Origin: Gammaproteobacteria bacterium
GTDB lineage: Bacteria; Pseudomonadota; Gammaproteobacteria; Pseudomonadales; Azotimanducaceae
DNA length: 64,000 nucleotides
NCBI GenBank assembly: GCA_030428905.1
Contig: JAUIED010000004.1
Location: 1-64,000, forward strand
Direction: 5' to 3'
Shown here: positions 149 through 48,877 of the stretch, piece after piece
How positions within the stretch are numbered: position 1 is the first letter of the stretch
Layout of the letters: each line of letters opens with the position of its first letter
The notes under the pieces: generated by a model
What the model was told of the DNA's origin: nothing
The model's input: the letters and a program-made list of their open reading frames with translations, nothing else
The model's database searches: none
Position numbers and translations under genes: made by a program

Positions 149-1003
149 TCAGAGGTTGCCCAGATCGCAGCCGCGACGCTCCAGAATCGGTTTCAACGCC
201 CGGTAGGCGGCCGGAGTGTGCGTCAGGGGAATGGTCGGGTACAGGTGATGCACGATGTGGTACTGCATGCCGAGCGAGCCGATATTGCCCAGGCGGCTCT
301 TGAACGCGCGCGTATCGCGGTAGCGGCCGGTGGCTTCCCCCGGGTGGTGCGGCATCCACGAAAGGTAGTAGCGGATGTACGCCAATGCCAGGTGGCGGGG
401 TAGCCACCACAGGAGTGCCGCCTCCAGCGCGTAGCCGCTCCAGGCGAGGGTAAACAGGATGAGAAGGTAGGCCGCATTGAACAGGATGCCTTCCATCAGC
501 ACGTCTGTGCGGCCGATACGCTGCAGCGTTTCGCCGTATCGGTCCAGGTTGGGTGCGGCGAAGTGGCGCAGCAGAAACTGCCAGGTGTTCTTTGCGTGTA
601 CGTCGTAGTCCGGGTCCAGCGCCGGTTCATTGGCGTACTTGTGATGCTCGTAGTGGGTGTGGCGCAGCACACGAAAGGAGTTTGCCAGAGGCAGCACCGA
701 GAAATAGCCGACGAACTCGTTGAACCAGCGCAGACGGTGGCCGCGCCGGGCGATGATGTTGTGCTGCGCATCGTGAGAGGGTAGGTAAGACAATGCGATG
801 GTCAGCGTTGCCAGTACGAATCCGAGCCACAACGGTAACACGCCTTTGAGCACGAGCGGCCACAACGACAGCCAGAGCAGGCAGTTGCCGATGCCCCACA
901 GCACCATGCGCCAGGGGAAGATGTGCATGAAGCGTGCGGCGATGCGACGTTCCATGGCGTCGAGCTCGGCGGCGGATGCGGTGTGTACATCTGCGCTCGT
1001 CAT
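149..1003 (-). CDS. Fatty acid desaturase family membrane protein
   Basis: Integral-membrane di-iron desaturase or hydroxylase that would introduce a double bond or hydroxyl into an acyl chain or other lipid at the inner membrane. The three histidine boxes are visible: HDAQH (about residues 77-81), HTHYEHH (about 115-121) and a C-terminal HIVHH followed by LYP near 250. Hydrophobic segments lie between them. I place the start at ATG 1003 (284 aa) because it overlaps the stop of the preceding small gene as ATGA, a sign of translational coupling. A GTG 12 bases earlier (1015) is also possible. The exact substrate cannot be read from sequence; beta-carotene hydroxylase-like members share these boxes. 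Confidence 0.85.
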   Translation of the reverse strand: MTSADVHTASAAELDAMERRIAARFMHIFPWRMVLWGIGNCLLWLSLWPLVLKGVLPLWLGFVLATLTIALSYLPSHDAQHNIIARRGHRLRWFNEFVGYFSVLPLANSFRVLRHTHYEHHKYANEPALDPDYDVHAKNTWQFLLRHFAAPNLDRYGETLQRIGRTDVLMEGILFNAAYLLILFTLAWSGYALEAALLWWLPRHLALAYIRYYLSWMPHHPGEATGRYRDTRAFKSRLGNIGSLGMQYHIVHHLYPTIPLTHTPAAYRALKPILERRGCDLGNL

Positions 1004-47915: not shown

Positions 47916-48431
47916 TCAAACGCTGCCGGGCGTGGGCAGCACGGTGGTTTCCATCTGCTCCGGTTCGAGCCCTAAGCAGATAAGCACCTTGGACATGCCG
48001 AGAAAGAGGCCAACGCCCATTGCGGCCTCCACGATCTGTTCGTTGGAAAACTCGGCCTGCAAAGCAGACTTCGTCTCGTCGGTCAGCCTGTGTGGATCGC
48101 CGATGAGCGCGTCGGTGAGCTGCAGCAGGGCGGTTTCTGCCGGGCTCAGGTGATCTTCGTAGCCGTCGGCAACCAGGCTCGCTCTGTCTTCCGTCAGCCC
48201 CGCTGCACGAGCGGAGTCGAAGCGCACGTTGCGTCAGTAGCCGCAGTCGGTGATGCGGGCGTTGCGCAGCCGTGTCAGCTCCTTCAGCTCCGGCGCCAGC
48301 ACGCCGTTCTGCCAGAACTCGGCGTAGAGCTCGAAGAAGCGGCCGATGATGTCAGGGGTGTGCGCCATGACGGAGCCGAAGTCGGCGGCCTGGCGCGGGT
48401 CGGCGGCGCCGATGCGCGGTGTGGTGGACAT
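47916..48431 (-). CDS. Candidate selenocysteine-containing CMD/AhpD-like protein (in-frame UGA)
   Basis: From ATG 48431 the frame encodes 65 residues to TDCGY, meets TGA at 48236-48234, and continues in the same frame with RNVRFDSARAAGL for another 105 residues to a normal stop at 47918-47916 (171 aa in all). CMD/AhpD-type proteins have a redox CxxC followed by N-x-R. Here the UGA occupies the second cysteine (Cys63-Gly-Tyr-U66-Arg-Asn). Helices on both sides (VMAHTPDIIGRFFELYAEFW; PAETALLQLTDALIGDPHRL) are intact. The start is coupled to the upstream CMD gene by a one-base overlap (TGATG). The alternative is a TGC/TGT to TGA nonsense mutation. Selenocysteine needs selA, selB, selC and selD elsewhere in the genome. 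Confidence 0.6.
48188..48222 (-). promoter_or_regulatory. Candidate bacterial SECIS hairpin
   Basis: Directly after the in-frame UGA the mRNA can form a seven-pair stem CUCCGCU/AGCGGGG (18-24 with 30-36 bases after UGA) closed by the pentaloop CGUGC. An internal loop and a four-pair lower stem CUUC/GAAG (12-15 with 43-46) lie below it. Bacterial SECIS elements are stem-loops about this far downstream with a G-U in the apical loop; here GU is at +26/+27. The structure was drawn by eye and its stability has not been calculated. Confidence 0.45.
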
Positions 48432-48877
48432 CAGGCAGTCACTCCCAGGGTGATTTTCCAGCGGCAGATCACGTCAAAAAACGCACACGCGGTGAGCAGG
48501 GCGACAGTGCCCTGGTCGCCGAGCGCGGCCTGCACCGCATGCACCTGTTCGTCGGCCATGCCGTGGTGGTTGAAAGGAATGGTATCGGCTATCGCCAATA
48601 CCTGCTGCTCCTCGGCGGAGAACATGGAGAAGTCGCCTCGCTTGAGCGCCGAGAGCTCCGCCTCCGAGCAGTGTCCGTGCCGCTGCTGCCATTCGGCGTC
48701 GCAGCCGTGCACCGCGGCGATGCGCAGCCGGCAGAGCTCGCGCAACCGGTCAGGCACGGCCTGCGATCGGCACAGCGTCTCGTAGAAAGCAGTGAACCGT
48801 TCCATCAGTTCCGGCCGTGCGCCCAGCACGGTGCTGAGATCGGTCGCTGCGCTTGCGTTGCCTTCGAGCCAGGTCAT
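48431..48877 (-). CDS. CMD family protein, partner of the UGA-containing gene
   Basis: A 148-residue CMD/AhpD-fold protein: VLGARPELMERFTAFYETLC, RLRELCRLRIAAVHGCDAEW and QQRHGHCSEAELSALKRGDF, then SAEEQQVLAIADTIPFNHHG. Only one cysteine (Cys in HGCDAEW) remains at the CxxC position. I use ATG 48877; GTG 48892 is an alternative. Its stop overlaps the start of the UGA-containing CMD gene (TGATG), so the two are translated together and may form a mixed oligomer. Confidence 0.82.
   Translation of the reverse strand: MTWLEGNASAATDLSTVLGARPELMERFTAFYETLCRSQAVPDRLRELCRLRIAAVHGCDAEWQQRHGHCSEAELSALKRGDFSMFSAEEQQVLAIADTIPFNHHGMADEQVHAVQAALGDQGTVALLTACAFFDVICRWKITLGVTA

Follow-up and report, generated by a model that had tools for sequence, protein, structure and literature searches.

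A CMD/AhpD-type gene on the minus strand of the window, the 64,000-nucleotide stretch of gammaproteobacterial DNA analysed here, is interrupted by one in-frame TGA at the position of the second cysteine of its CxxC motif. This arrangement raises the question of whether the gene is decaying after a nonsense mutation, or whether the UGA is read as Sec. Our sequence analysis leads to the second answer: the gene very probably encodes a selenoprotein, with UGA66 as the predicted Sec codon, and is not a pseudogene. The computed results comprise the conserved UGA, the Sec/Cys exchange among homologues, a covarying hairpin that is lost together with the UGA in Cys homologues, the decoding genes of the source genome, purifying selection and the fold.

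Reading frame and conservation of the in-frame UGA

Translation of the minus strand gives 171 codons followed by a terminal TGA at 47918–47916, and the 171-residue product reads MSTTPRI...RLRNARITDCGY-U-RNVRFDSARAAGL...PTPGSV (Table 1). The only internal TGA lies at codon 66 in the context C63-G-Y-TGA-R-N, with 105 codons beyond it. The PF02627 (CMD) match spans this TGA, covering residues 36–107 with 39.6 bits against a gathering cut-off of 23 bits. Translation and profile match together bear out what the preliminary description had read from the locus, namely the exact interval 47916–48431, the 171-codon frame with one TGA at the second Cys of CxxC, and family features on both sides of it. 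That description left the minus strand unstated, and was silent on the conserved tandem CMD partner and on the Arg replacing the AhpD catalytic His.

Table 1 Positions in the window of the predicted selenoprotein gene, its elements and its partner gene
Feature	Position	Strand	Basis
Predicted CMD/AhpD-fold selenoprotein gene	48431 to 47916	-	Translation, PF02627, AlphaFold2 and Foldseek, 45 genomes of the source family
In-frame UGA, codon 66, predicted U of CxxU	48236-48234	-	Sequence; UGA/Cys exchange in homologues
Cys63, predicted counterpart of Sec66 in C-G-Y-U	48243..48245	-	Invariant in alignment
Glu51, equivalent of AhpD Glu118 / PA0269 Glu36	48279..48281	-	Invariant; role from PMC3141380
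Arg70, at the catalytic-His position (AhpD His137 / PA0269 His55)	48222..48224	-	Invariant; spacing compared with PMC3141380
Bacterial SECIS-like hairpin	48198..48216	-	Alignment fold and pair counts, 23 distinct UGA sequences
CMD paralogue without CxxC	48431..48877	-	PF02627, 26.5 bits; synteny; AhpD-fold model

A scan of the genomes of 84,980 species returned nine homologues, whose identity to the window protein ranges from 90% to 54%; all nine have their TGA at this codon. In the source family, a 12-sequence profile searched against 207 genomes located the gene in 45 of them, belonging to 13 genera; a single TGA is present in 43 homologues and Cys in the other two (G026 and G035). Direct reading of the 35 distinct loci of the family gave TGA in 33 and TGC in these two, and the UGA occupies the identical codon in homologues ranging from 90% to 53% identity. 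Searches at the order and class levels added homologues in 18 further genomes outside the source family, none of which contains a stop, and the 17 that were read, from seven families, all have Cys at the codon-66 position. The comparison of close homologues at codon 66, which the preliminary description had put forward as a check, thereby yields UGA, with Cys in the more distant ones. The decay that it had named as a mark of a pseudogene is absent, as the homologue loci read contain no added stops or frameshifts. Moreover, between the window gene and a 90%-identical relative, dN is 0.065 and dS is 1.05 downstream of the UGA; substitution in this part is mostly synonymous and indicative of purifying selection.

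A maximum-likelihood tree of 48 proteins, calculated with the Sec residue masked, requires two Cys/Sec changes. Most simply, Cys would have been replaced by Sec once, no later than the base of the source-family clade, and Sec by Cys once, in the lineage of G026 and G035. Both revertant genomes retain tRNA-Sec and selB above cut-off. In another genome of the set (G093), a copy of the Sec gene (L015/L039) carries about 29 extra codons, inserted in frame into the loop that follows the SECIS region, with the TGA and the hairpin intact.

The downstream hairpin and the Sec decoding genes

The bacterial SECIS, as outlined in the relevant passages of PMC1088965, is a stem-loop right behind the UGA, with a G in a small apical loop. 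A SECIS search of the 60 bases behind the UGA had been put forward as a check in the preliminary description, and a conserved, covarying stem-loop is present there. The spacer between the UGA and the first base of the hairpin is 17 nt. The stem comprises 7 bp, in which 48216–48210 pairs with 48204–48198, enclosing the loop CGTGC at 48209–48205; both its location directly 3' of the UGA and the G in its small apical loop fit the published features. Among the 23 distinct UGA sequences, 21 form all seven pairs and the other two form five of seven. The loop is CGUGN, with its first four bases (CGUG) invariant. Over these sequences, 97.5% of the hairpin cells are paired versus 91.1% in shuffled controls, and 15 cells with compensatory double changes are observed versus 4.7 in the shuffles. 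When the stem partner is slid as a control, pairing is at most 59%.

In a synonymous-recoding test, P is about 0.02–0.03 per sequence for seven of seven pairs, and the two sequences with five pairs are not significant; because the sequences are related, these values were kept per sequence and not multiplied. An Rfam search returned no SECIS match, just chance snoRNA matches; Rfam is without a matching family, and we relied on covariation. In the two Cys homologues the hairpin is lost, with two and three of the seven pairs remaining. That the hairpin is lost precisely in those sequences that no longer have a UGA is our most specific evidence for its predicted role in UGA decoding.

The source assembly (5.2 Mb, 99.6% complete) was searched for the Sec decoding genes, a check named in the preliminary description, which took an absence of selB/selC in a complete genome as a sign of a pseudogene. 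All four, selA, selB, selC (tRNA-Sec) and selD, were found. The selA (530 bits), selB (381 bits) and tRNA-Sec (72.7 bits) genes are contiguous on one contig (C7), which also contains selD (268 bits), and each scores above its curated cut-off. In addition, the source genome has two genes of the NF041238 (seleno)protein family, each with an in-frame TGA (449 and 343 bits versus a cut-off of 175), and these point independently to actual use of UGA decoding. In the source family, selB and tRNA-Sec are above cut-off in 81 and 84 of 101 genomes, respectively. Sec is used by most members of the family, so the co-occurrence of the gene with selB and tRNA-Sec is uninformative within it. In one draft genome (G089), the UGA gene is accompanied by selB but by no tRNA-Sec above cut-off.

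Further genes of this type with an in-frame TGA were observed alongside. A second CMD selenoprotein candidate in the source genome (L094; G000:C327, TGA at 683–685, plus strand) has the motif N-D-C-F-T-U and is 30% identical to the window protein; its best NCBIfam match is NF053654, at 54 bits versus a cut-off of 310. Its TGA is followed by a hairpin, TTTCCATC-GGC-GATGGAAA, of which relatives have covarying versions (TTTCTGTC...ACAGAAA). The two NF041238 copies, with the motif C-F-Y-U, are separated by about 9 kb on a single contig (G000:C114:9079-10128, L100, and G000:C114:19402-20457). Together with the window gene and L094, they bring the predicted CMD/AhpD-type selenoprotein genes of the source genome to at least four. 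TGA-bearing matches to the second CMD family were also found at L042 (G018) and at G088:C1:1499996-1500418, in genomes without a selB or tRNA-Sec match above cut-off, which are probably incomplete assemblies.

Fold, active site and the tandem CMD partner

In a profile search against solved structures, the best solved relative is PA0269 (2IJC/2O4D/7XW1, E 2e-12), an AhpD-like weak peroxidase of Pseudomonas aeruginosa (PMC3141380). Other profile matches are Atu0492, Mlr4105 and the debrominase Bmp8 (E 0.0021). The AlphaFold2 model is all-helical and of moderate confidence (mean pLDDT 67.6), and Foldseek of this model retrieved 2O4D, 2GMY, 3C1L and 6K40, with TM-scores of about 0.7 by query. Profile and Foldseek searches agree on an AhpD fold shared with PA0269, Atu0492 and the D. 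radiodurans AhpD-like proteins; Bmp8 also matches.

The active site of PA0269 and of M. tuberculosis AhpD is composed of a Glu, a Cys-x-x-Cys motif and a His four residues past the second Cys (PMC3141380). In the window protein, Glu51 sits 12 residues before Cys63, an AhpD-like spacing, and Glu51, Cys63 and position 66 are invariant. Tyr65 is retained along with Glu51 and Cys63, and the predicted Sec66 takes the second-Cys position; the Glu and CxYC positions match those of PA0269, which also ranks with the best fold matches (TM-score about 0.7). The catalytic His expected four residues after the second Cys is absent in the alignment, and its place is held by the invariant Arg70. Thus PA0269 has Cys and the relay His55, whereas the window protein has Sec66 and Arg70. 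From the sequence, the redox pair is judged intact and the proton relay altered, and with Arg70 in place of the relay His, it is uncertain whether the protein could act as a peroxidase in the manner of AhpD.

In AhpD, the second Cys is the one that attacks the peroxide. For the window gene, we propose that the ribosome would decode UGA66 as Sec, with the hairpin 17 nt downstream as the site at which SelB and Sec-tRNA act, and that the product would be an all-helical AhpD/CMD-fold subunit bearing the C63-G-Y-U66 redox pair. The Sec66 selenolate may attack a hydroperoxide or a disulfide, Cys63 may resolve the Sec66 intermediate as a selenenylsulfide, and a dithiol donor of the thioredoxin or lipoate type may reset the pair. 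Judging from the modelled fold and the motif, we lean towards a role as thiol/selenol peroxidase or disulfide reductase.

A CMD paralogue without CxxC is located immediately upstream. Its start was set at the Met conserved in relatives, and the longest ORF extends to 48892. The TGA stop of the partner and the ATG of the selenoprotein gene have one base in common (TGATG, 48433–48429), and the two genes form a two-gene operon. The partner is the immediate upstream neighbour, on the same strand, in 34 of the 35 distinct source-family loci, and likewise in each of the 17 Cys loci that were read outside the family. The sole exception among the 35 is the locus of G003, where no partner ORF was found beside the Sec gene, which suggests that the partner is not strictly required.

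The two proteins are homologous to each other (up to 52 bits), and the model of the partner has the AhpD fold (pLDDT 79). In the eight aligned partners, the invariant features are a helix rich in Arg, a His and, at the position of Cys63, a Cys; Glu occupies the Sec66 position, and the Cys is missing from some more distant partners. Beyond the CMD pair, no neighbours are shared past close relatives, and they give no functional clue; a scan for sigma-70 promoters found nothing. On the grounds of synteny and gene overlap, a mixed oligomer can be envisaged, and the partner may be its co-translated structural or regulatory subunit, a reading to which we give about even weight. More tentatively, the locus could specify a two-subunit selenoenzyme, in which a Sec subunit with Arg for His and a paralogue without CxxC, made from the same mRNA, assemble into the mixed oligomer, with a history of one Cys-to-Sec change and one reversal accompanied by SECIS loss.

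Alternative explanations and relation to known selenoproteins

A lone in-frame stop on one metagenome-type contig resembles a young pseudogene, and automated annotation would agree with such a reading, in which a nonsense mutation has struck a decaying CMD gene. We rejected it because the TGA and the downstream frame are conserved across divergent species: TGA persists in 43 of the 45 homologues from 13 genera, the loci read show no extra stops or frameshifts, dN is well under dS downstream, and the hairpin covaries. The chance that the gene is a pseudogene is therefore practically negligible. It is likewise highly improbable that the UGA is decoded as Trp or passed by general readthrough, or that the locus yields two separate proteins, a 65-residue N-terminal part and the product of a downstream restart. 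A 103-codon ORF with a GTG start does follow the UGA, but this GTG is a Val codon within a conserved NVRFD motif and not a domain edge, and the two Cys homologues are single unbroken chains. Reassignment of the stop codon was rejected because homologues without the UGA have Cys at this position and in no case Trp, and the genome has the complete Sec machinery.

With the gene taken to encode a selenoprotein, the main rival to the proposed function is a reaction like that of Bmp8 on a small organic substrate. The protein would then belong to the Bmp8 / gamma-CMD type and act on that substrate with its Cys/Sec pair, either as a decarboxylase or as a reductive dehalogenase. Both the fold and the profile searches match Bmp8, an Arg in place of the catalytic His could bind a carboxylate, and the neighbours past the CMD pair are not conserved and offer no antioxidant context. 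We nevertheless consider this function unlikely, as the peroxidase-related PA0269/Atu0492 group matches closer and the profile match to Bmp8 is weak (E 0.0021).

The statement in the preliminary description that AhpD-like selenoproteins have been reported from marine metagenomes is correct. A CxxU AhpD-like (COG2128/TIGR01926) selenoprotein from the Sargasso Sea is presented in the passages of Zhang & Gladyshev 2005 on this family (PMC1088965; included in PMC13188914), and the corresponding passages of PMC1088965 and PMC13188914 give CMD-domain CxxU selenoproteins (PF02627) as a Pfam-level group of four Sargasso sequences. CxxU AhpD-like/CMD selenoproteins also figure in the pertinent sections of reviews from 2022 and 2026 (PMC9312934, PMC13188914). 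The claim of a new selenoprotein would consequently hold for the subfamily and fails for the kind, since, by the account in PMC1088965, CxxU AhpD-like selenoproteins have been known since 2005.

As described in those passages, the Sargasso AhpD-like selenoprotein resembles the window protein in belonging to the AhpD/CMD superfamily, in having Sec second in CxxU and in a SECIS just after the UGA; against TIGR01926, however, the window protein scores 40.1 bits, below the cut-off of 81.8. The Sargasso CMD-like selenoprotein also combines a PF02627 domain with CxxU, and for this group the passages in PMC1088965 and PMC13188914 describe no subfamily, operon or partner, unlike the window pair. NF041238 (AhpD_rel_CFYUT, hypothetical protein 1 of the Sargasso Sea) likewise has Sec in C-x-x-U, with the motif C-F-Y-U, but is one chain of about 355 residues, and the window protein reaches 26.3 bits versus its cut-off of 175. 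The notion that this two-half selenoprotein is a fused CMD pair (a 'Rosetta stone') was rejected because the similarity is too weak. For NF053654, the YciW-related (seleno)protein, the score is 23.6 bits, under the cut-off of 310.

The scores below cut-off on TIGR01926, NF041238 and NF053654 point to a distinct branch with no NCBIfam model at cut-off. The Cys homologues found outside the source family, at the order and class levels (L058-L074, L093), share the two-gene CMD/CMD arrangement, a CxxC followed by [KR] and the Arg four residues past the second Cys; unlike the window gene, they have Cys and no UGA. Hence, by model scores, the window protein appears to represent a lineage-restricted, unmodelled branch of a known kind of selenoprotein.

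An apparent pseudogene would thus become an intact enzyme gene in 43 or more genomes of a single gammaproteobacterial family, and a database model for the subfamily would stop annotation from splitting it. The tree and the two Cys revertants, which have kept selB and tRNA-Sec, form a natural before/after set for studying what a CxxC enzyme gains from Sec, if anything, and how a SECIS decays when it is no longer needed. Moreover, the conserved partner without CxxC makes it possible to test whether the AhpD superfamily includes a non-catalytic subunit.
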